Shown here piece by piece: positions 3,064 to 29,756 of a stretch of 64,000 nucleotides of DNA. How positions within the stretch are numbered: position 1 is the first letter of the stretch; every line of letters starts with the position of its first letter. The position numbers and the translations under genes are program-made. Below the pieces are notes generated by a model, which saw only the letters and a list, made by a program, of their open reading frames with translations, did not search any database and was not told where the DNA came from. Where the stretch lies: assembly GCA_013373015.1 (NCBI GenBank), contig JABXIQ010000007.1:62001-126000 (forward strand). Direction: 5' to 3'. Origin of the DNA: Kangiellaceae bacterium (lineage in GTDB: Bacteria; Pseudomonadota; Gammaproteobacteria; Enterobacterales; Kangiellaceae).

Positions 3064-3104
3064 AATAAAACCCCATATAAGACGTTACAATTCAATTGAC
3101 TTGG

Positions 3105-3132
3105 TTATGGGGGTTAGATTAATAATTTCAAG
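3105..3132 (-). promoter_or_regulatory. sigma32 heat-shock promoter of htpG
   Basis: On the minus strand CTTGAAA (3132-3126) is followed by a 13-base spacer and CCCCATAA (3112-3105). This matches the E. coli RpoH consensus (CTTGAAA, 11-16 bases, CCCCATnT) nearly perfectly. The predicted transcript starts about 35 bases before the htpG ATG. Confidence 0.85.
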
Positions 3133-3145
3133 CAACCTTTATATA

Positions 3146-3173
3146 ATAAAAAAGCCAGCAAAAGCTGGCTTTT
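3146..3173 (-). terminator. terminator of the S41 protease gene
   Basis: Perfect 10-bp stem (AAAAGCCAGC/GCTGGCTTTT) with a four-base loop and a T-run on the minus strand, 18 bases after the protease stop and just upstream of the htpG promoter. The symmetry also gives a T-run on the plus strand. Confidence 0.85.
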
Positions 3174-3190
3174 ATAGATACCACTTACAA

Positions 3191-15896: not shown

Positions 15897-17924
15897 TTAA
15901 AATTGATAACTTATCTTGGCCACCCCATGTCGACCAGCGGCAGGGTAAAAACCATTAAATTGAGCATAATCAATATAAGACTTGTTAAAAATATTATCTA
16001 ATCGCAAAGATAGTCGCCAGCTATCCAAATTCCAACTCAATGAACTATTGACTAGTGCATATGAGTTTACTTGGGGTAATGCATTTACAGCATCGCCATC
16101 TTGATAGCGGCCTCCTCGATAATTCACCTCCACACGCCAATCGAGATCATCCACTACAGCCCAATTTACCCAACCGTTAGCGGTTTGCTTTGCAACTCCT
16201 GGCAATTGATATTTTTTCGAGTCAACGACTAGTATTGCATCAACATAATGATAATTTAATCCTAAACTGATGAACTGCAATGGATTAAATTCATATGAAA
16301 CAATAAGTCCATTTCGACTTGATGACTGTCCATTCACATTCGCCCCCGGAAAAAAAGCACCTACAGGCTCGGTTGCATTGGGGTCAAAAAAAATCTCATC
16401 TTTTAACTTAAGTTGATAAATAGATGCTTTGAATTGGTGGCCATTCTCTAGGTAACTTATACCAAGCTCAGTAGAATAACCTCGCTGAGGATTAAGACCA
16501 ATGATATTAGGAGATGTATAAGCTTGTTCATCAACTTTAGCGAATCGAAAGTTTTTACTCCAACGAGCATACGCTTGTAATTGATTACTCACTTCATAAT
16601 TTAAGCCAATATCAAATGCATGAGCTTTATTATCAAGATTTACTCCTTGTGCATAACTAAAAGCATCAGTTAATTCGTCTTTAACCTTGCTATAACGGCC
16701 TGCCAAGTTCAGATTCATGCTTTGTAAGAATGGTATTGATAAATAACTATAGATACTCAAAGCCTTCTGCTGATTACCACGACTTAACAGTGAAAAGTCA
16801 TAATCATTATGATCAATATCCATACCAGCTATCCATTCTACAGTTCTAGCGTCGCTTCGCTGCTCTTCTAGCACCCACACTTTTTTTATGCGCGGATACA
16901 CGCCAAGTTGACTCCGCTCAGTGCTGTTTACTGTATCTGTTGCAAAACCAATAAAGCTGTTAATACTTTCTATATTACTGTCAGAATGATTAATATCTAA
17001 ACCAAACTGCCAACTTTCTGAAAGTTGATGACTAGAATTAAATTGATAGCTAACCCTGTCAGTATTCACAAAATCATTTGCAAACTCATCTCTTGATAAC
17101 CGAGGGCTTATTAAGTCTTCCTCTAATAGTGCCCCTGGTGTTTGTAAGTGTTCCTTAAAATCAATAATCTCTAGGTTCCAATTCGAACTCTGACCTATAT
17201 AGCCTAGCTGCATGGCAACCTGTTTTTGTTTTTGCTCATTATGTTCGCGATAATTATCTGTTCTCTTTTCATAGCCTGAAAAAGCCCCTTTCCATCCGTT
17301 ATCACCAGAAAAGTTTACATCCACACTTGCTAATCTATTATGATAACTTCCTGCTGCTACTGTAAATTTTGCAGATTGATTATTGGGTGATTTGGTTATC
17401 ACATTAATCACTCCAGCAACCGCTTGATCACCATAAAGACTGGTTGCACTACCTTGAACTATTTCAATACGTTTAATACGTTCAATAATGATTGTTTCAA
17501 GATCGGGAGCAGCTATGTCAGTATTATTTAAGCGTCGCCCATCAAGCAAAACTAATACATTATTTGCAGCTTGTTCGAATGCTACCCCTCTCAAACTGAC
17601 TATTGTTTTTCCAGAAAGATTGCTAACTTGAACCCCTGCAACTTGTTGCAATAACTGCAAAAGATTACTAGCTCCGGACAACTCAATGGTTTCTTGATCA
17701 ATAACATCAATATGTGTTGGAAGTTGCTTATATTCCTGCTCAAAACGGTTTCCACTTACAATGATAATATTATTTTTTACTTTAGTGTGTTCCGATATTG
17801 TTTGCGCTTTTTCAGCAGCATCAGAGGACTTAACAACAAAAAGATTAACGATGATTACAGCTAATAAATACGTCAAATAATGTGAAGCAGTTGCTTCAAT
17901 CCGGTCAAACATATGCCTTTGCAT
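15897..17924 (-). CDS. btuB: TonB-dependent vitamin B12 receptor BtuB
   Basis: Outer-membrane cobalamin receptor, about 675 aa. N-terminal signal region, TonB-box-like NNIIIVSGNRFEQ, then plug domain (LPTHIDVIDQETIELSGASN, continuing to VLLDGRRLNNTDIAAPDLE and IERIEIVQG-type RIKRIEIVQGSATSLYGDQA) and a 22-strand-type barrel ending ...GRHGVAKISYQF with the terminal Phe. The assignment to B12 rests on the cobalamin riboswitch directly upstream and the adjacent adenosyltransferase. ATG 17924 (MQRHMFDR) is chosen since it begins a plausible signal peptide; ATG 17912 with AAAGG four bases before it is an alternative. Confidence 0.93.
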   Translation of the reverse strand: MQRHMFDRIEATASHYLTYLLAVIIVNLFVVKSSDAAEKAQTISEHTKVKNNIIIVSGNRFEQEYKQLPTHIDVIDQETIELSGASNLLQLLQQVAGVQVSNLSGKTIVSLRGVAFEQAANNVLVLLDGRRLNNTDIAAPDLETIIIERIKRIEIVQGSATSLYGDQAVAGVINVITKSPNNQSAKFTVAAGSYHNRLASVDVNFSGDNGWKGAFSGYEKRTDNYREHNEQKQKQVAMQLGYIGQSSNWNLEIIDFKEHLQTPGALLEEDLISPRLSRDEFANDFVNTDRVSYQFNSSHQLSESWQFGLDINHSDSNIESINSFIGFATDTVNSTERSQLGVYPRIKKVWVLEEQRSDARTVEWIAGMDIDHNDYDFSLLSRGNQQKALSIYSYLSIPFLQSMNLNLAGRYSKVKDELTDAFSYAQGVNLDNKAHAFDIGLNYEVSNQLQAYARWSKNFRFAKVDEQAYTSPNIIGLNPQRGYSTELGISYLENGHQFKASIYQLKLKDEIFFDPNATEPVGAFFPGANVNGQSSSRNGLIVSYEFNPLQFISLGLNYHYVDAILVVDSKKYQLPGVAKQTANGWVNWAVVDDLDWRVEVNYRGGRYQDGDAVNALPQVNSYALVNSSLSWNLDSWRLSLRLDNIFNKSYIDYAQFNGFYPAAGRHGVAKISYQF

Positions 17925-18008
17925 GTGAATAGTCTCGTAATACGAGCGGGAACAAAAAAAATAACTAACCAAATAACACTTCAACGCCCGCCGCATCGAC
18001 TGTCAAAG

Positions 18009-18174
18009 AAATTAAGGCTGGTCTCCGGACTTATAAGCTTCTAGCTTCTCACCTTCCCAGCGATTTATAGCTTCAAATCACCAGTGGTTATTGAAAAGCG
18101 CTCCTAATTACCGTTGCGGGGGCAGTATCAGAATCACACTGATTTCCCAATTAACTCTATCAAGACCTTAATTT
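18009..18174 (-). promoter_or_regulatory. cobalamin riboswitch upstream of btuB
   Basis: On the minus strand all conserved segments are present in order. The P1 arms AAATTAAGG (18174-18166) and CCTTAATTT (18017-18009) are perfectly complementary. Then come TTGGGAAATCAG, the CTGCCCCCGCAACGGTAA core, CTGGGAAGGTGAGAAGC and the B12 box AGTCCGGAGACCAGCC. Binding of coenzyme B12 would repress btuB, the adenosyltransferase and the DUF6580 gene. The expression platform between 18008 and 17925 shows no strong terminator, so translational control is more likely. Confidence 0.95.
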
Positions 18175-18293
18175 AGGTAGTTACTAGATATAACAACTTA
18201 CTCAGAGCCATTAATTCACTTCAAGGGTTAGAAAAAGCAAATCTGTGGGTTTCCCTCTGAGCAAGTGAGTGCTATGATACGCAAAAACCATAT

Positions 18294-21300: not shown

Positions 21301-22006
21301 AACCGCTAAAGCAGTGATAGGATTCTTTCCTGCCCATTCGCAAGGTGATGACATTCTTATTTACGAAGATACTGATTTTGTAACGCCTCGATATACATTA
21401 CATCATTTACGTCAACAAAAACAAACGCGCGAAGGAAAAAGTAATCTATGTTTGTCAGACTTTATTGCTCCTCTTATCTCAAATAAAAAAGACTATATTG
21501 GAGCTTTTGCAGTAACAGCAGGAATTGGAATTGACAAACATATCGAAAGGTTTGAACAAAAAAATGACGACTACAGCGCAATTTTACTAAAAGCACTTGC
21601 AGACAGATTAGCCGAAGCTCTCGCCGAGCGCATGCATGAGTTAGTTAGAAAAGTATACTGGGGCTATAATTCTGAGGAAAACCTAGATAATGAACAAATT
21701 ATCTCAGAGAAGTACCAAGGGATTCGTCCAGCTCCTGGTTATCCAGCTTGTCCAGATCATACAGAAAAAGGAACTCTCTGGAAGTTATTAGAGCCCGAAA
21801 AAAATATTGGTCTTAATATCACTGAGAATTTTGCCATGTACCCTACTGCTGCAGTTTCAGGCTGGTATTTTTCACATCATCGTTCACAATACTTCGGTAC
21901 TGGAAAAATAGATAAGGATCAAGCCCAAGATTATGCAAAACGAAAAGGATGGTCTTTACAAACTGCCGAGTATTGGTTAGCCCCTGTGTTAAACTATGAC
22001 ACATAA
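18329..22006 (+). CDS. metH: cobalamin-dependent methionine synthase MetH
   Basis: Transfers methyl from methyltetrahydrofolate to homocysteine through bound cobalamin. The 1225 aa equal the full four-module enzyme. The homocysteine domain runs to about 330 with zinc ligands including the [11 protein letters not shown] pair (about 307-317). The pterin-binding domain ([16 protein letters not shown] near 350) runs to about 620. The B12-binding module (about 650-890) has the cobalt-coordinating [12 protein letters not shown] and the [10 protein letters not shown] and IGGATTSK motifs. The C-terminal reactivation domain has [15 protein letters not shown]. Divergent from the B12 operon and repressed by MetJ boxes. 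There is no clear Shine-Dalgarno sequence before ATG 18329. No metE is visible. Confidence 0.97.
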
Positions 22007-22127
22007 CACTACAGAACAAATAACTGCTCTGAACAGTGCATTTATTGCAAAAAGTTATTTGAAAAATTATTTTTCCGTGTTAACTTCGTACCAATAATAT
22101 ATATTAAAAAATATGCAAACGATAACA

Positions 22128-22229
22128 ATGTCTATAAAACAGGCGAACATTAACTCCTTAAAAGCTGCTTTAGTGTCAGTGGTAATTATTGTGGTGATTT
22201 TATTATTACCGCAAAGGGGTCGTTTGTAA
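22128..22229 (+). CDS. ilvL: ilv leader peptide 1
   Basis: A 33-residue leader ORF whose middle reads VSVVIIVVILLLPQ; ten of the twelve codons at 22173-22208 are Val, Ile or Leu (GTG TCA GTG GTA ATT ATT GTG GTG ATT TTA TTA TTA, with one Ser). An in-frame ATG at 22113 would give 38 residues. Organisation is like E. coli ilvL. The stop at 22227 lies 17 bases before the terminator stem. No strong ribosome site is visible before either ATG. Confidence 0.8.
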   Translation: MSIKQANINSLKAALVSVVIIVVILLLPQRGRL

Positions 22230-22246
22230 GTAACAAACAATTAACC

Positions 22247-22280
22247 AAGCCCCTGCACTGAAAAGTCCAGGGGCTTTTTA
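22247..22280 (+). terminator. attenuator terminator 1
   Basis: AAGCCCCTG (22247-22255) pairs with CAGGGGCTT (22268-22276) and the T-run is 22275-22279. An AGGGG segment inside leader 1 (22215-22219) could pair instead with CCCCT (22250-22254), a weak antiterminator of five to six pairs. Confidence 0.88.
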
Positions 22281-22311
22281 CTTTATAACGAACAGGAATA
22301 TTTTTAGAACT

Positions 22312-22392
22312 ATGCAACTAGCAACTTCAATTATTGTGGTAGTGGTTATTGTGGTGATTTTATTACCGCAAGGGGGCTTGCTGCGCAAATAA
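22312..22392 (+). CDS. ilv leader peptide 2
   Basis: A 26-residue leader ORF beginning MQLATS and continuing IIVVVVIVVILLPQ: twelve consecutive Ile, Val or Leu codons (22330-22365). AGGAA lies about 15 bases upstream. The ORF ends at TAA 22390, overlapping the segment GGGGGCTT (22372-22379) that forms the antiterminator. Like leader 1 it ends in a short Pro-Gln-Gly/Arg tail, which supports duplication. Confidence 0.82.
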   Translation: MQLATSIIVVVVIVVILLPQGGLLRK

Positions 22393-22407
22393 AAGATAAA
22401 ATGCATT

Positions 22408-22440
22408 AAGCCCCCGCACTGAAAAGTCCGGGGGCTTTTT
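22408..22440 (+). terminator. attenuator terminator 2
   Basis: AAGCCCCCG (22408-22416) pairs with CGGGGGCTT (22429-22437), with an inner ACT/AGT stem, GAAA loop and seven T. The leader-2 segment GGGGGCTT (22372-22379) is identical to the 3' arm and perfectly complementary to AAGCCCCC, giving a clear eight-pair antiterminator. Confidence 0.92.
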
Positions 22441-22470
22441 TTAAATTAAACAAACATCAAAGGTAAACAA

Positions 22471-23487
22471 ATGAAAGTCAAATATGATAAAGATATTAAT
22501 ATCAAATACTTAACAGATAAAAAAGTAGTTGTCATTGGTTACGGCTCACAAGGATATGCTCATTCAAACAATTTGAAGGACAGTGGTTTTGATGTAACTG
22601 TTGCATTAAGAGAGAGCTCTTCAAGTTTCCAGAAGACAACTGCCGCAGATCTTAAGGCTAATACGCTAGACAATGCCATTAAAGAAACTGATGTTGTCAT
22701 GCTTTTATTGCCTGACGAAAAGCAGGCTGAAGTTTATAAAAATCATATTGAGCCTCACCTAAAACCTAACGCCAGCTTAGCTTTCGCACATGGGTTCAAT
22801 ATTCATTTCTCACAAATCGTACCGAGAAAAGATATCAATGTATTCATGGTAGCACCTAAAGGCCCGGGACATACCGTTCGCTCTACTTTTACCGAGGGCT
22901 CAGGTGTTCCATGTTTAGTAGCAGTTTATCAAGACGTCACCGGTGATGCTAAAGAAATTGCTTACGCATATGCAAGTGCTATCGGCGGTGGTAGAGCTGG
23001 TGTTATTGAAACCAGCTTCAAAGAAGAGACTGAAACAGATTTATTTGGCGAGCAAGCAGTCTTGTGTGGTGGAACATCTGCTTTAGTGCAAGCCGGTTTT
23101 GAAACTTTAGTTGAAGCTGGTTATGCACCTGAAATGGCTTATTTTGAATGCTTGCATGAATTAAAACTGATTGTTGATCTAATGTATGAAGGCGGTATTA
23201 ATACTATGCGCTATTCTATTTCAAACACTGCAGAATATGGTGATCTAACGCGTGGAAATCGATTAATTACCGAAGCAACTAAGCAAGAAATGAAAAAAAT
23301 TCTTAACGAAATCCAAGCAGGACAATTCGCTAATGAATATGTTGAAGACTGTAAAAATAACTATCAAAGATTAAACCAGCTTAGAAAAAACAACCAGCAG
23401 CATCCACTTGAAGTTGTTGGTGAAGAGTTAAGATCTATGATGCCTTGGATCAAGAAGAAGCCATTAGTTGATAAGGCTCTTAATTGA
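22471..23487 (+). CDS. ilvC: ketol-acid reductoisomerase, class I
   Basis: NADPH-dependent enzyme that isomerises and reduces acetolactate and acetohydroxybutyrate in Val/Leu/Ile synthesis. It has 338 aa, the short class I form (E. coli has the long class II). Rossmann motif [17 protein letters not shown] (about 19-35), then [12 protein letters not shown], and the Mg-binding knotted C-domain with [13 protein letters not shown] and [23 protein letters not shown] lies 7 bases before the ATG. First structural gene of the attenuated operon, 13 bases before ilvG. Confidence 0.98.
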
Positions 23488-23499
23488 CAAGGATTTATA

Positions 23500-25161
23500 A
23501 TGTTAGGCGCAAACTACTTAATTAAAGTTCTAGAAGAACATAAAGTTGATACCGTTTTTGGTTATCCTGGCGGTGCAATTATGCCAGTCTATGATGCTCT
23601 ATTTGATAGCAGCATAAAACATATACTGTGCCGACATGAACAAGGTGCTGTTTTTGCTGCAGATGGTTATGCTCGTTCCAGTGGTAAGCTCGGCGTATGC
23701 ATTGCAACCTCTGGTCCTGGTGCAACTAACCTTTTGACAGGAATAGCCAATGCCTATCTAGACTCTGTACCTTTACTTGCCATAACGGGGCAAGTGAATT
23801 CAGATCTAATGGGCACAGATTCCTTCCAAGAAATAGATACTCTGGGACTTTCTTTTTCAATTGTGAAGCACAGCATATTAGTAAAAACAATCGATGAGCT
23901 ACCACAAGCTATTTATCAAGCTATTCATATTGCTCAAGAAGGTAGGCCTGGTCCAGTTCTGCTAGATATCACTAAAGATGTTCAGCAGGCAGCAATAAAA
24001 AGAGTAACTGTATCGCTTCCTGTCAGCGATTGCTCTGATCTAGATGAAAAAAAATTACAACAAGCAAAACATCTTATTGAAACCAGCAGTCGACCTCTGT
24101 TTTATGCTGGTGGTGGCATAGGTATGGCTAATGCTAGTACAAGCTTCAGAGCACTAGCAAATAAACTACAAATTCCCATCGTTACCACTCTAAAAGGAAT
24201 CGGTTCAGTTGCTACAAACTTTTCCAACAATTTGGGCATGCTAGGGATGCATGGTACTAAAGCCGCAAATTTTGCAGTACAAGACTGTGATCTGCTAATT
24301 GCTGTAGGAGCAAGATTTGATGATCGAGCCACTGGGAAACTAGACGAGTTTGCGCCTAGTGCTAAAGTGATACACTTTGATTTCGACAAGGCCGAGTTTG
24401 ATAAATTAAAATTTGCCACGGTAAAAGTTACCGGTAATCTCAACAAAAACCTGCAATATTTAGAACAGCAGATCAATTGTACTGGCAATCAACAATGGCT
24501 AAGTAGCTGCCTGGCCAACAAGCGACAGTATCAATTTAAATACTCGAAAAGTGAACAAACGATTTGCGCTTCAAGCCTACTAAATCGTTTATCTAAATTA
24601 TTGCATGATAAGCCTCACATCGTTACTTGCGATGTTGGTCAGCATCAAATGTGGGTTGCTCAACATATGCATTTCCAAGGTATAGAAAATCACCTTAGTA
24701 GCGGCGGGCTCGGAGCCATGGGTTATGGACTTCCCGCTGCAATAGGTGCGCAACTTGCGAATAAAGATCATCAAGTAATCAATGTTTCCGGTGATGGCTC
24801 TATCATGATGAATATCCAAGAATTAGCCACTTTGATCAGGTATCAAATTCCTGTAAAGATCCTACTTCTGGATAATCAACGCTTAGGGATGGTACGCCAA
24901 TGGCAACAATTATTTTACAACAATCGCTACAGTGAAGTAGATCTCTCCGACAACCCTGATTTCACTCTTGTTGCTAATGCTTTTGGTATTCGTTCACAAA
25001 GCATAAGTAGTGGTATGCAAGTAGAAAAGGCTTTGCAACAATTTCTAGATTCGGAAAAAAGTTATCTGCTACACGTTTCGATTGACCCAAAAGAAAATGT
25101 TTGGCCACTAGTGCCTCCAGGTAAAAACAATTCGCAACTTATAGAAGGAGAATCCTTATGA
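23500..25161 (+). CDS. ilvG: acetolactate synthase large subunit
   Basis: Thiamine-diphosphate and FAD-dependent enzyme that condenses pyruvate with pyruvate or 2-oxobutanoate. At 553 aa it is close to IlvG. The N-terminal catalytic Glu sits in CRHEQGAVFAADGYAR (about 45-60), the central FAD domain follows, and the ThDP motif is GDGSIMMNIQELATL with DNQRLGMVRQWQ downstream. It is paired with a short 89-aa ACT subunit, which makes IlvGM (isoenzyme II type) the best match. The stop overlaps the start of the small subunit by four bases (ATGA), indicating translational coupling. Confidence 0.96.
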   Translation: MLGANYLIKVLEEHKVDTVFGYPGGAIMPVYDALFDSSIKHILCRHEQGAVFAADGYARSSGKLGVCIATSGPGATNLLTGIANAYLDSVPLLAITGQVNSDLMGTDSFQEIDTLGLSFSIVKHSILVKTIDELPQAIYQAIHIAQEGRPGPVLLDITKDVQQAAIKRVTVSLPVSDCSDLDEKKLQQAKHLIETSSRPLFYAGGGIGMANASTSFRALANKLQIPIVTTLKGIGSVATNFSNNLGMLGMHGTKAANFAVQDCDLLIAVGARFDDRATGKLDEFAPSAKVIHFDFDKAEFDKLKFATVKVTGNLNKNLQYLEQQINCTGNQQWLSSCLANKRQYQFKYSKSEQTICASSLLNRLSKLLHDKPHIVTCDVGQHQMWVAQHMHFQGIENHLSSGGLGAMGYGLPAAIGAQLANKDHQVINVSGDGSIMMNIQELATLIRYQIPVKILLLDNQRLGMVRQWQQLFYNNRYSEVDLSDNPDFTLVANAFGIRSQSISSGMQVEKALQQFLDSEKSYLLHVSIDPKENVWPLVPPGKNNSQLIEGESL

Positions 25162-25427
25162 GCAGGACAAGCAATATCAAAATCATAGCTAAAAATTCAT
25201 TAGGCAGTCTTGAAAGAATATTGCGCCTAGTCCGTCATCGCGGCTTCGAAGTTAGTTATTTTGAAGCCAACAGTTATGACATTGAAGATGGTTTAGCTAT
25301 AACTATGCAAGTAACAGGTGAACGCCAAGAAAGTAATCTATTTCATCAATTATATAAACTTGTAGACGTTATTGAAGTCAATCTCAACAGTCATCAAAAA
25401 GTAAGGAGCTGCTTGGGCAATGACTAA
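25158..25427 (+). CDS. ilvM: acetolactate synthase small subunit, IlvM type
   Basis: An 89-residue regulatory subunit: a single ACT domain (NIKIIAKNSLGSLERILRLVRHRGFEV, later GLAITMQVTG and LVDVIEVNL). The length matches IlvM rather than the roughly 160-aa IlvH/IlvN, and such subunits are often insensitive or weakly sensitive to valine (family knowledge, not shown here). It overlaps ilvG by four bases and cimA by eight. Confidence 0.9.
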   Translation: MSRTSNIKIIAKNSLGSLERILRLVRHRGFEVSYFEANSYDIEDGLAITMQVTGERQESNLFHQLYKLVDVIEVNLNSHQKVRSCLGND

Positions 25428-27021
25428 CACTATCAGAGTTTACGACACTACCCTGCGTGATGGCTCTCAAACCAATGGCATCAGCTTTTCTTTAGCAGAC
25501 AAAATAGCTATCTGTAAACTACTTGATGACTTTCAAGTCGACTATATAGAAGCAGGATGGCCAGGCTCTAACCCTAAAGATATGGCACTGTTTGAACAAG
25601 CCAATGAAATAGGCTTAAGTCATTCAAAGCTGGTTGCTTTTGGCTCCACTAAAAGACCTAACAATAAGGTAGAAGAAGACCCTCAAATTCGACAGTTAAT
25701 TGAAGCAAACACATCTACTATTACTATTGTAGCTAAGTTTTGGGATTTCCATGTCACTGACATTTTAAGGACAAGTCTTGAGCAAAATTTAGTCATGATT
25801 AAAGAATCAATAAGCCACTTGAAGTCTTATAATAAAGAAGTATTTGTTGATGCAGAGCATTTCTTTGATGGTTTTCTGTCAAACCCGCGGTATTCTTATC
25901 AATGCATCTTGGCGGCCGTTGAAGCTGGTGCAGATAATATCACCTTATGCGACACCAATGGTGGCAGCACCCCTGCTCAAATTCAAAATGCGGTTGAACA
26001 AATTAAGATTCAATTTCCTGATCTGAGTCTTGGTATTCATTGCCATAATGATTGTGATTTAGCTGTGGCCAATAGTCTAAGTGCGATAGAGTCTGGCGTT
26101 GACTTGCTGCAAGGAACTGTAAACGGCTATGGCGAACGCTGTGGCAATGCAAATCTAATCCCTTTAATTGCTAATTTAACGTTTAAAAATAATACACAAT
26201 TCAAGCAAGACTTTGATCTTAAAAAACTTTCAAAACTTGCACATGCAATAGCAAACATCGCTAATATTCCTTTAAATGCTAATGCACCTTATGTTGGCGA
26301 GAACGCTTTTACCCATAAAGGTGGACTGCATGTCTCAGCCATAGCTAAATACAGCAAAAGCTATGAACATATCGATCCACTTCTTGTTGGTAATGACCGC
26401 ACTATTACGATCTCAGAGCTATCAGGACGAAGTAATTTAAAACTTCAAGCCAAAGAGCTTGGATTCAACATTAACGATATTAGTTACGAGTTATTAGAAC
26501 AAGTAAAAGAACAAGAGCAGCAAGGCTTAGTTCTTGAGAATGCTGGTGGAACCTTTGAAATGCTTATTCGAAAAAAACAAAGCGATTATAAGTCTCCATT
26601 CGATCTGAAAAAAATTCAAGTACAGACTGGTAATTTTATTGAAAATACAGAATTTTGCACCGCTATTGTAAAGAATGAGGTCAATCACATTTCTTATTTA
26701 GCGGCCTGTGAATCCAAAGGCCCGGTAGACGCATTAGACAAAGCTATTAAAAAGACTTTAGTTGCTCAATATCCTCAAATTAACGAATTTGAGCTTGTTG
26801 ATTATAAAGTTTCTATTGTTGACCCTATTAACGCGACAGCAGCAAAAACTCGGGTTTGGATTCAGGCATCTGCTTTTGGCAAAACTTGGAGCACTATTGG
26901 ATGTTCAGACAATATTTTAAAAGCAAGTGCCGAAGCATTAGCTGATAGTTATCAATTATTTATTTTAAAGTTCAATCTTAAACGCGAGGAAAGTTCTCAT
27001 GGCAAAAATTTCTCAGCCTAA
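25420..27021 (+). CDS. cimA: (R)-citramalate synthase CimA
   Basis: Condenses acetyl-CoA with pyruvate to citramalate, the first step of the threonine-independent route to isoleucine. It is a 533-aa member of the DRE-TIM LeuA/CimA superfamily: DTTLRDGSQTNGISFSLADKI at the start (catalytic Arg/Asp), HCHNDCDLAVANSL metal-binding region, NGYGERCGNANL and the LeuA-type allosteric domain after about 390. The order and the phrase EAGWPGSNPKD favour CimA over 2-isopropylmalate or homocitrate synthase. It overlaps ilvM by 8 bases and ilvE by 23. No threonine deaminase (ilvA) is in the window; the following steps need LeuCDB from elsewhere. Confidence 0.93.
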   Translation: MTNTIRVYDTTLRDGSQTNGISFSLADKIAICKLLDDFQVDYIEAGWPGSNPKDMALFEQANEIGLSHSKLVAFGSTKRPNNKVEEDPQIRQLIEANTSTITIVAKFWDFHVTDILRTSLEQNLVMIKESISHLKSYNKEVFVDAEHFFDGFLSNPRYSYQCILAAVEAGADNITLCDTNGGSTPAQIQNAVEQIKIQFPDLSLGIHCHNDCDLAVANSLSAIESGVDLLQGTVNGYGERCGNANLIPLIANLTFKNNTQFKQDFDLKKLSKLAHAIANIANIPLNANAPYVGENAFTHKGGLHVSAIAKYSKSYEHIDPLLVGNDRTITISELSGRSNLKLQAKELGFNINDISYELLEQVKEQEQQGLVLENAGGTFEMLIRKKQSDYKSPFDLKKIQVQTGNFIENTEFCTAIVKNEVNHISYLAACESKGPVDALDKAIKKTLVAQYPQINEFELVDYKVSIVDPINATAAKTRVWIQASAFGKTWSTIGCSDNILKASAEALADSYQLFILKFNLKREESSHGKNFSA

Positions 27022-27940
27022 ACTTATTTGGCACAACGGCGAGTTGATTCCTTGGATGGATGCTAAGGTTCATGTACTGAGCCATGCTATCCATTACGGT
27101 TCTTCTGTTTTTGAAGGTATACGTTGCTACAACACCCCTAATGGAGCAGCTTTTTTTAGACTCAACGAACATATTGAGCGATTGTATCAATCGGCAAAAA
27201 TATACCGCATGAACATTCCTTTTACTGCAGTAGAATTAACTGAGGCCTGTCATAACGTTATTAGTGCCAATAATCTTAAAGACGCTTACCTAAGACCTGT
27301 TGCTTTTTTTGGTTACGGTTCAATTGGCGTTAGTCCAAAAGAAAACCCTGTTGTCGTTTCTATTGCTGCGTTTCCTTGGGGAGCATATCTTGGAGAAGAT
27401 TCAATTAATCAAGGTGTTGATACCGCTATATCTTCTTGGAATCGCGTAGCATCAAATACCATTCCAACGGCAGCAAAAGCTGGAGGTAATTATTTATCTT
27501 CTCAACTCGTGATCGAAGAAGCAGCAAGACATGGCTACCATGAAGGCATAGCTCTTGATACTAATGGTTTTATCTCTGAAGGCTCAGGTGAGAATATTTT
27601 TATAGTCAGAAATAATGTTCTTTACACACCTCCATTTACAGCATCAATTCTTCCCGGCATTACTCGCGATACCGTTATAACACTAGCTAAGAAAAATGGA
27701 CTACAAGTTATTGAGCAAAATATGACTCGTGAAGCTTTCTATCTTGCTGATGAAGCATTTATGACTGGTACTGCAGCCGAAATTGTGCCGATAAGAAGTG
27801 TCGATGGCATTGATGTAGGTAATGGCAAACGCGGTGCTGTCACTCAATTACTTCAACAACAGTTCTTTGGTCTGTTTAATGGGGCTACTGAAGATCAATG
27901 GCAGTGGCTCACTCCTGTAAAGGAACTGACTTATGCCTAA
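26999..27940 (+). CDS. ilvE: branched-chain-amino-acid aminotransferase
   Basis: PLP enzyme (fold type IV) performing the last transamination of Val, Leu and Ile. 313 aa, standard length. Motifs: [13 protein letters not shown] (about 30-43), the PLP lysine in [14 protein letters not shown] (about 157-170), [10 protein letters not shown] and the phosphate-binding [10 protein letters not shown] and [18 protein letters not shown] lies about 9 bases before ATG 26999, inside the end of cimA. It overlaps ilvD by eight bases. Confidence 0.97.
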
Positions 27941-29756
27941 CTATCGATCTCGCACTAGCACACATGGTAGAAATATGGCTGGGGGACGAGCATTATGGCG
28001 TGCCACAGGTGTCAAAGAAGAAGACTTTGGAAAACCCATCATTGCTGTCTGTAATTCTTTTACTCAGTTTGTCCCTGGTCATGTTCATTTAAAAGATTTG
28101 GGACAGCTAGTCGCAGGGGTTATAGAAGAGCATGGGGCCATTGCCAAAGAGTTTAATACTATTGCTGTTGATGATGGAATAGCTATGGGACACTCTGGCA
28201 TGCTTTATTCTTTGCCATCACGTGAAATTATTGCTGATTCAGTCGAATACATGGTCAATGCTCACTGTGTCGATGCCATGATCTGTATCTCTAATTGTGA
28301 CAAAATTACCCCGGGAATGTTATTGGCGTCAATGCGCCTTAACATTCCAACCATTTTCGTTTCAGGTGGCCCAATGGAAGCTGGTAAAACCAAGCTCTCT
28401 GACAAAATTATCAGACTTGATCTGGTCGATGCGATGGTTGCAGCAGCTAACCCGAAAATAAGTGATCAGGACAGTGAGCAAATTGAGAGAAGCGCCTGCC
28501 CTACTTGTGGCTCATGCTCAGGAATGTTTACCGCTAACTCAATGAACTGCTTAATGGAAGCTTTGGGATTAGCTTTACCCGGCAATGGATCTTTGCTTGC
28601 CACCCATGCTAATCGTAAACAACTCTTTATCGATGCCGCAAAAACTATTGTACAGTTGACCAAAGCATATTACGAAGGAAACGACACCTCTGTATTACCC
28701 AGAAATATTGCCAATCAACAAGCCTTTGAAAATGCCATGATGTTAGATATTGCTATGGGAGGTTCAACCAATACTGTTTTGCACCTATTGGCAGCTGCCC
28801 ATGAAGCAGAAGTCGATTTTACCATGGCTGACATTGACAGATTATCAAAAAAAATACCTCACTTATGTAAAGTCGCGCCATCAAGCAAAAAATACTACAT
28901 GGAAGATGTTCACCGTGCTGGTGGAGTCATGTCTATTTTAGGTGAATTATCTCGCGGCGGTTTACTCAATGATGAGTTAAGAACCGTAGCAAGTCCTAGT
29001 ATCAAAGAAGCTATCATGCAGTGGGATATTACGGTGTGCGACTATCCAGAGGTGAAGCATTTTTATAAATCAGGGCCCGCAGGTATAGCAACTCAGCGAG
29101 CATTTAGCCAAGACTGCTATTACCCTAGCCTTGATCAAGATCGAGAAACAGGTTGTATCAGAAATATCGACAATGCTTACAGTCAAGACGGAGGACTTGC
29201 GGTATTATTTGGAAACCTAGCCCCCAATGGTTCTATTGTGAAAACCGCAGGTGTAGATGAAAGCTGCCTTAACTTTGAGGGGCAAGCTGTAGTATTTGAA
29301 TCTCAAGATGAGGCAGTAGCGGCTATCCTTTCAGATCAAGTCAAGCCTGGAAGCGCGATCATTATTCGTTATGAAGGACCAAGCGGCGGCCCAGGTATGC
29401 AAGAAATGCTTTACCCGACCAGCTATCTAAAATCAAAAGGGCTTGATAAAAGCTGTGCTCTAATAACTGATGGTAGATTTTCTGGCGGAACCTCTGGGTT
29501 ATCCATTGGACACGTATCACCAGAAGCGGCAAGTGGAGGAAATATTGCATTAGTCGAAAATGGTGATCCTATACGCATTGATATTCCCAATAGGACCATT
29601 GAGCTTTTCATTAGTGAGCAAGAACTTTCACAAAGACATAATGACAAAGCCAATCATTGGAAGCCAAATCAACGTGATAGAACGGTATCAAAGTCACTAC
29701 AGCTTTATTCTAAATGTGTATCGAGTGCAGATAAAGGAGCCGTAAGATTGCTTTAA
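27933..29756 (+). CDS. ilvD: dihydroxy-acid dehydratase
   Basis: Iron-sulfur enzyme that dehydrates the dihydroxy acids in Val/Leu/Ile synthesis. 607 aa, slightly shorter than E. coli IlvD (616). Cluster cysteines appear in [10 protein letters not shown] (about 122-131) and [17 protein letters not shown] (about 189-205); other conserved blocks are [14 protein letters not shown] and [21 protein letters not shown]. Last gene of the ilv operon. The stop overlaps the stop of convergent metF by four bases within a hairpin. Confidence 0.97.

Follow-up and report, generated by a model that had tools for sequence, protein, structure and literature searches.

A predicted pair of homologous ilvL-type attenuators in series before the ilvC operon in a genus of the Kangiellaceae

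Results

Two leader-terminator units lie between metH and ilvC

In the window (the whole 64,000-nt stretch of DNA analysed here), the interval between metH, which ends at position 22006, and ilvC, which starts at 22471, holds two short leader ORFs with a GC-rich hairpin and a T-run behind each (Table 1). Translated from ATG 22113, leader 1 reads MQTITMSIKQANINSLKAALVSVVIIVVILLLPQRGRL; the translation of leader 2 is MQLATSIIVVVVIVVILLPQGGLLRK. Downstream, ilvC is followed by ilvG, an ilvM-like small ORF, cimA, ilvE and ilvD. With cimA in the operon, the source organism may make isoleucine from pyruvate. In the source genome, all matches of a threonine dehydratase model were below its cut-off, but that cut-off was passed by just two of 14 control genomes, so ilvA may still be present. 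On the other side of the locus, a Cobalamin riboswitch (17999-18185, minus strand, 107 bits) lies divergent from metH, immediately ahead of an ORF (15897-17996) resembling a TonB-dependent receptor.

Table 1. Features of the attenuator region and the downstream operon (positions in the window).
Feature	Position	Strand	Basis and details
Promoter-like site	22059..22086	+	Consensus scan; TTGAAA, 16-nt spacer, extended -10 TGT TAACTT
Leader peptide 1	22113..22229	+	ATG 22113, second in-frame ATG 22128, stop 22227-22229
Unit 1 antiterminator strand 2 (AGGGG)	22215..22219	+	Overlaps leader 1 end; duplex with strand 3 -11.2 kcal/mol
Terminator 1	22247..22279	+	Hairpin 22247-22276, T-run 22275-22279; R2 match 22170-22285, 77.8 bits
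Leader peptide 2	22312..22392	+	Start 22312, stop 22390-22392
Unit 2 antiterminator strand 2 (GGGGGCTT)	22372..22379	+	Duplex with strand 3 -18.1 kcal/mol
Terminator 2	22408..22442	+	Hairpin 22408-22437, T-run 22436-22442; R2 match 22327-22446, 98.8 bits
ilvC, first controlled gene	22471..23487	+	NF004017/TIGR00465, over cut-off
ilvG (acetolactate synthase 2 catalytic subunit)	23500..25161	+	NF006524, over cut-off
ilvM-like small ORF	25158..25427	+	Named by position, by eye, no model score
cimA, citramalate synthase	25420..27021	+	TIGR00977, over cut-off
ilvE	26999..27940	+	TIGR01122, over cut-off
ilvD	27933..29756	+	NF009103/TIGR00110, over cut-off

A preliminary description of this DNA had proposed two complete attenuators in series, 160-161 bases apart and sharing a 20-base coding core. 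Our analysis bears this out: both leader ORFs, hairpins and T-runs are present, the hairpins are 161 nt apart measured start to start, and TTATTGTGGTGATTTTATTA, read by eye, occurs in both leaders. Hairpin 1 folds at -19.6 kcal/mol (z -5.1) and hairpin 2 at -21.0 kcal/mol (z -4.5), a fold as good being reached in 0 of 200 shuffles for either one. Hairpins and leader cores are covered by two direct repeats, one of 48 nt with 81% identity at a distance of 161 and one of 41 nt with 76% identity at 157. When both strands of the 64 kb were scanned with a detector for Ile/Val/Leu-rich short ORFs followed by a terminator at most 40 nt downstream, only these two units were found, and the same detector returned 0 sites in 30 simulated (first-order Markov) windows. 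In the source genome, it found no leader attenuator before leuA. Between 21000 and 24000, a simple terminator scan listed no terminator, with 2.1 expected in shuffles; the internal C.C mismatch of both hairpins, barred by the rule of the scan, probably accounts for the miss. A simple promoter scan of the plus strand over the same interval also listed none, the promoter-like site there being of the extended -10 kind, and Rfam at gathering cut-offs gave no family at the attenuator site.

The identical hairpin tip was considered as a sign of recent duplication and rejected: the tip, CACTGAAAAGTCC, is also present in 12 of 20 single-unit loci from elsewhere, which represent three families, with ten of the 12 loci coming from one genus.

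Both units belong to the ilvL attenuator family

Two covariance models were used. R1 was built from 18 units of the genus described below, and its matches within the genus are partly circular; for R2 we used 80 units from outside the genus, which R1 had found at 80 loci in 78 genomes. On the window, R2 gave two strong sites, at 98.8 bits for unit 2 and 77.8 bits for unit 1, and the next matches were an antisense one over unit 2 (21.0 bits) and one at 3077-3180 (15.9 bits). One of the 80 sequences of R2, L240, has matches of 95-99% in 5375 of 5426 E. coli genomes; the three rows listed, at 97.8%, carry the annotation ilvL, 'ilv operon leader peptide'. Since R2 contains this ilvL match and finds both units, both belong to the ilvL attenuator family.

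Two units precede ilvC in the nine ilvC-bearing genomes of the genus

The preliminary description had proposed searching related genomes for one versus two units. In our sample of the genus (20 genomes, nine with ilvC, the source genome included), two units precede ilvC in all nine ilvC-bearing genomes. R2 gave 18 matches in the genus, at 77.8-114.9 bits, and the IlvC proteins of the other eight genomes are 75-82% identical to that of the window. Each of the 18 units has a short leader ORF with regulatory Ile/Val/Leu codons just before the attenuator and a computed intrinsic terminator ahead of the first gene. A single unit with a thinned Ile/Val/Leu run (L129 1501-1615, minus strand) was found in G016, a genome of the same genus with no ilvC match, before ilvM-like and ilvE-like ORFs (named by eye); the other 10 genomes gave no unit match at E 0.1 or better. 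No ilvC match was obtained in 11 of the 20 genomes (two of the 11 less than 90% complete), which suggests that branched-chain amino acid synthesis has been lost in many species of the genus.

In a tree of the units, whose sequences are too short for dating the duplication, units 1 and 2 form separate groups in four genomes (G001, G005, G007 and G014) and are mixed in three (G000, G004 and G015). Possible histories, as judged from these sequences, are one old duplication with gene conversion or separate duplications. The two units of G018 (L035 10744-11123) are 83% identical, the highest value of the nine genomes, as if evened by gene conversion.

Unit-bearing loci surveyed outside the genus carry one unit

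Leader-peptide attenuation is a textbook system, usually with one attenuator per operon. We surveyed a draw of 394 genomes of the order, with strict filters for R1 under which a rare tandem elsewhere is possible, and obtained R1 matches in 207. Among the matches listed, 80 non-genus loci were inspected, 20 returned by the search and 60 picked. The ORF-plus-terminator detector sees a unit in 20/20 and 52/60 of these, respectively, and R1 finds the unit in each of the loci that the detector misses (L184, L186, L199, L225, L230, L232, L237 and L243). At L153 and L159, the detector additionally linked distant ORFs to another terminator lying upstream; R2 scores nothing there.

R2 was run on 88 non-genus sources, namely the 80 loci and eight ilvC loci (L011-L018; L012 and L151 are the same locus). 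One full sense-strand unit was found in 86, none in two (L011 and L018) and two units in 0, where for the 80 source loci of R2 one unit is found by construction and the test is the absence of a second. The statement in the preliminary description that a single attenuator is the rule elsewhere thus agrees with all 86 unit-bearing non-genus sources. Upstream of ilvG, L232 (652-824, genome G042) has a single leader with two successive terminators behind it, the second being a terminator-only half-duplication. At L201, R1 but not R2 gives a second, weak match on the sense strand (16.7 bits, E 0.48), in which no hairpin was seen by inspection. Of the non-genus genomes, 17 gave more than one R1 match; in these, R2 at E 0.01 detected no adjacent sense-strand pair apart from the G042 half-unit. 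No unit was found within ~1 kb upstream of the longer type of ilvC that most other families have (13 loci, L019-L031), and in a class-wide survey R1 matched 12 of 369 genomes, strongly only in the genome of the window and one member of the order.

Alternative pairings are conserved in both units

In all 18 units, a strand 2 within or at the end of the leader pairs with the 5´ arm of the terminator (strand 3), at -11.2 to -18.1 kcal/mol. On an alignment of the 18 units, standard pairs fill 99.5% of cells for the terminator (slid controls at most 66.2%) and 92.1% for the antiterminator (slid controls at most 61.9%). The first antiterminator pair fails in four sequences and the sixth in six; we ascribe these failures to G000, G004, G015 and unit 2 of G008, whose strands pair with a mismatch or in a register shifted by one base. 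Five related genomes show a two-sided G-C to A-U change in unit 1, at a single antiterminator pair; the five may go back to one event. The number of pairs with a two-sided change (one) was reached by 432 of 500 shuffles and the number of cells by none. In unit 2 of G004, the CCGCAACGG segment is kept although an inserted base has put it into another reading frame, which points to a role of the RNA rather than of the peptide.

To model ribosome positions, we folded transcripts truncated ahead of strand 4, assumed that the ribosome covers 12 nt downstream of the A-site, and omitted unit 1 from the folds of unit 2. With the ribosome on the fifth codon before CCG, the computed antiterminator probability is 0.96-1.0 in 18/18 units; on the last codon before CCG, the computed values are mixed (0.09-1.0), and with the ribosome at the stop codon strand 2 is predicted to be covered in 18/18 units. 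In folds without a ribosome, the antiterminator reaches at least 0.79 in 14/18 units and 0.04-0.40 in the other four. No strand 1:2 protector hairpin is evident in the ribosome-free folds of most of the 18 units, and with the antiterminator this high, untranslated leaders would leak. Under this model, a ribosome reaching the stop codon therefore seems needed for termination in most units.

A strict separation of the pairings of the two units was rejected: pairing of strand 2 with strand 3 of its own unit beats the cross-unit pairing in only 14/18 units, equals it in two and is weaker in two (unit 1 of G004 and unit 1 of G015). The bolder reading is that the gates are coupled, such that strand 4 of an antiterminated unit 1 becomes free, binds strand 3 of unit 2 and antiterminates that unit as well; only polymerases that have slipped through an intact terminator 1 would then be stopped at unit 2. 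The duplex this calls for is computed at -13.9 to -21.5 kcal/mol in the nine genomes and equals or exceeds the antiterminator of unit 2 itself in strength in seven of them, but it is weaker in the window (-13.9 vs -18.1 kcal/mol) and in G004, and such pairing arises automatically from two similar terminators. Moreover, a G-to-A change in strand 4 of unit 1 in 3/9 genomes, including that of the window, is unmatched in strand 3 of unit 2, which argues that the cross pairing is not specifically kept. Coupling is the boldest rather than the best supported reading, and we consider it quite unlikely. If true, the coupled double gate would amount to RNA-based proofreading of attenuation, with licensed polymerases passing unit 2 and leaked ones being stopped.

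The units read nearly the same codons and differ in strength

Directly before the CCG codon, 12 of the 18 units encode precisely the six residues Ile-Val-Val-Ile-Leu-Leu; two more contain this string one residue off, and the units that depart from this core (G004 unit 1, G008 units 1 and 2, G015 unit 2) are spread over both unit classes. The codons thus point to the same signals for both units. The preliminary description had offered, as one of several options, that the units sense different charged tRNAs, a view at odds with these near-identical cores; the run of three Leu codons in leader 1 and the excess of Val in leader 2 on which it drew are present in the genome of the window, and this bias is not kept in the relatives. 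A broader version would have the units answer different amino acids or thresholds (for example Leu as against Val/Ile) as a two-input gate. The codons upstream of the core do differ, unit 2 is richer in Ile/Val/Leu over the last 12 codons in 9/9 genomes and has one more Leu in 3/9 (one fewer in the window), and the terminators of unit 1 are weaker in 8/9 genomes with one tie. The core shared by both unit classes and the absence of the window's Leu and Val bias from the relatives nevertheless lead us to regard such split tuning as unlikely.

The two units are unequal in a consistent direction. In counts over nine genomes that are related and hence not independent, unit 2 has the higher R2 score in 9/9 and, as noted, the richer leader and mostly the stronger terminator. 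From these comparisons, we read unit 2 as the consensus-like main gate and unit 1 as a weaker, probably added pre-filter that is further from the family consensus.

A conserved predicted promoter lies upstream of unit 1

Upstream of leader 1, the pattern TTG[CA]A[AG]-N16 (ending TGn)-TAnnnT is present in 8/9 genomes, with a degenerate TTGCTT form in the ninth. No comparable promoter was seen between the units in the nine genomes, where the best consensus scores are 6-8 with no extended -10 (vs 8.5-10 upstream), and in the inter-unit spacer of G004 the consensus scan gave no promoter site at all. The spacer from hairpin 1 to the ATG of leader 2 measures 20, 35 and 39 nt in three genomes, which leaves no room in them for a promoter plus a leader start. 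In the other six, it measures 105-188 nt (130 in G018); these spacers could hold a weak promoter, given that the margin by which the upstream scores of 8.5-10 exceed theirs is narrow. With a conserved promoter before unit 1 and no comparable internal one, a transcribing polymerase is expected to have to get past the two terminators in turn.

Shine-Dalgarno pairing is weak for leader 1 (best -2.2, median 0.1 kcal/mol) and for leader 2 (median -2.2 kcal/mol) over the nine genomes. As a special cause of the doubling this finds no support, because single-unit leaders are weak too (median -1.4 kcal/mol for the 75 of 80 scored, five without ATG having been dropped; p 0.11 against leader 1 and 1.0 against leader 2). 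The weak pairing of leader 1, together with the lower scores and, in 8/9 genomes, weaker terminators of its unit, could also be taken to mean that unit 2 alone works as an attenuator and that unit 1 is a drifting duplicate or simply a constitutive partial terminator. Against this, a leader, a terminator and a matching antiterminator are retained by unit 1 in 9/9 genomes while the spacer just downstream varies from 20 to 188 nt, and the two-sided antiterminator change falls in unit 1. That unit 1 is such a passenger is, in our judgement, very improbable.

Discussion

Our preferred reading, which we consider likely, is that two homologous ilvL-type ribosome-mediated attenuators in series, behind one promoter, form a same-signal gate on ilvC-ilvG-ilvM-cimA-ilvE-ilvD. 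The tandem architecture, the homology to ilvL, the computed alternative pairings, the conservation in the genus and the lack of a comparable internal promoter are all apparent in the DNA itself, and we infer that the leaders are translated, that termination occurs in the cell and that the same-signal logic is multiplicative. In each unit, a ribosome reading smoothly to the stop codon would cover strand 2, strand 3 would pair with strand 4 and transcription would end; a ribosome delayed on the Ile/Val/Leu core would leave strand 2 free for strand 3, and polymerase would continue. As both units read nearly the same core, polymerase would have to escape twice before the operon is transcribed, and output would approximate the product of two escape probabilities. 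By analogy with tandem TPP riboswitches, such a series gate would probably leak less at the basal level and respond more steeply to one and the same starvation signal. The multiplied repression or widened response suggested in the preliminary description would be a natural consequence of two terminators behind one promoter.

Among the matches listed in the open-access literature, we found no report of same-signal tandem leader-peptide attenuators; an earlier mention is possible in Vitreschak and colleagues 2004, reportedly a comparative attenuator survey. The attenuator of ilvL / ilvGMEDA in E. coli and relatives shares with the units described here an Ile/Val/Leu leader peptide, alternative strands, a C-run/G-run terminator and a similar tip, but there is one unit there and two here. 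The ORF downstream of single-unit loci is ilvG in 19 of 20 looked at and ilvC in one, whereas here two units stand before an ilvC-G-M-cimA-E-D operon.

Doubled leader elements of other kinds have been described. In the accessible text on the mgtCBR leader of Salmonella, tandem attenuators sense different signals (ATP and proline), an arrangement that its authors call 'a singular example' (PMC3641672), and the same text describes that leader as being without two intrinsic terminators, unlike the metE leader (PMC3641672). As far as that text goes, the likeness to our locus lies in a pair of short ORFs that serve as attenuators one after the other within a single leader. Our locus differs in having two intrinsic terminators and, as its units, homologous duplicates whose sensing codons are almost the same (PMC3641672). 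The rimP leader likewise has tandem terminators in a gammaproteobacterial leader, but the available part of the report does not describe it as a leader-peptide amino-acid attenuator, and its upstream terminator is given there with an inverse motif (PMC2965389). Closest in logic are tandem riboswitches for the same ligand, such as tandem TPP riboswitches, which are called pseudo-cooperative in the sections available, with a steeper, more digital response expected (PMC9481103). Judged from those sections, two independent elements for the same signal, each with its own decision point, are common to both systems, and the sensors are ligand-binding aptamers there and a translating ribosome here (PMC9481103). 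The pair described here would qualify as same-signal elements in series behind one promoter with their own terminators, the signal being deduced from the codons and the promoter from a consensus scan; its likeness to pseudo-cooperative tandem riboswitches is one of logic only.

Attenuation by a single unit has been modelled as hyper-sensitive, according to the accessible text of that work (PMC1183508), and the pair also offers a test of models of attenuator sensitivity, sharpening having already been argued for tandem riboswitches. For engineering, the genus provides a part list of natural variants, whose spacers span 20 to 188 nt and whose weaker unit consistently comes first. A genus with two homologous attenuators of nearly the same core in 9/9 pathway-bearing genomes is, finally, a natural test of whether stacking attenuators sharpens or tightens control.
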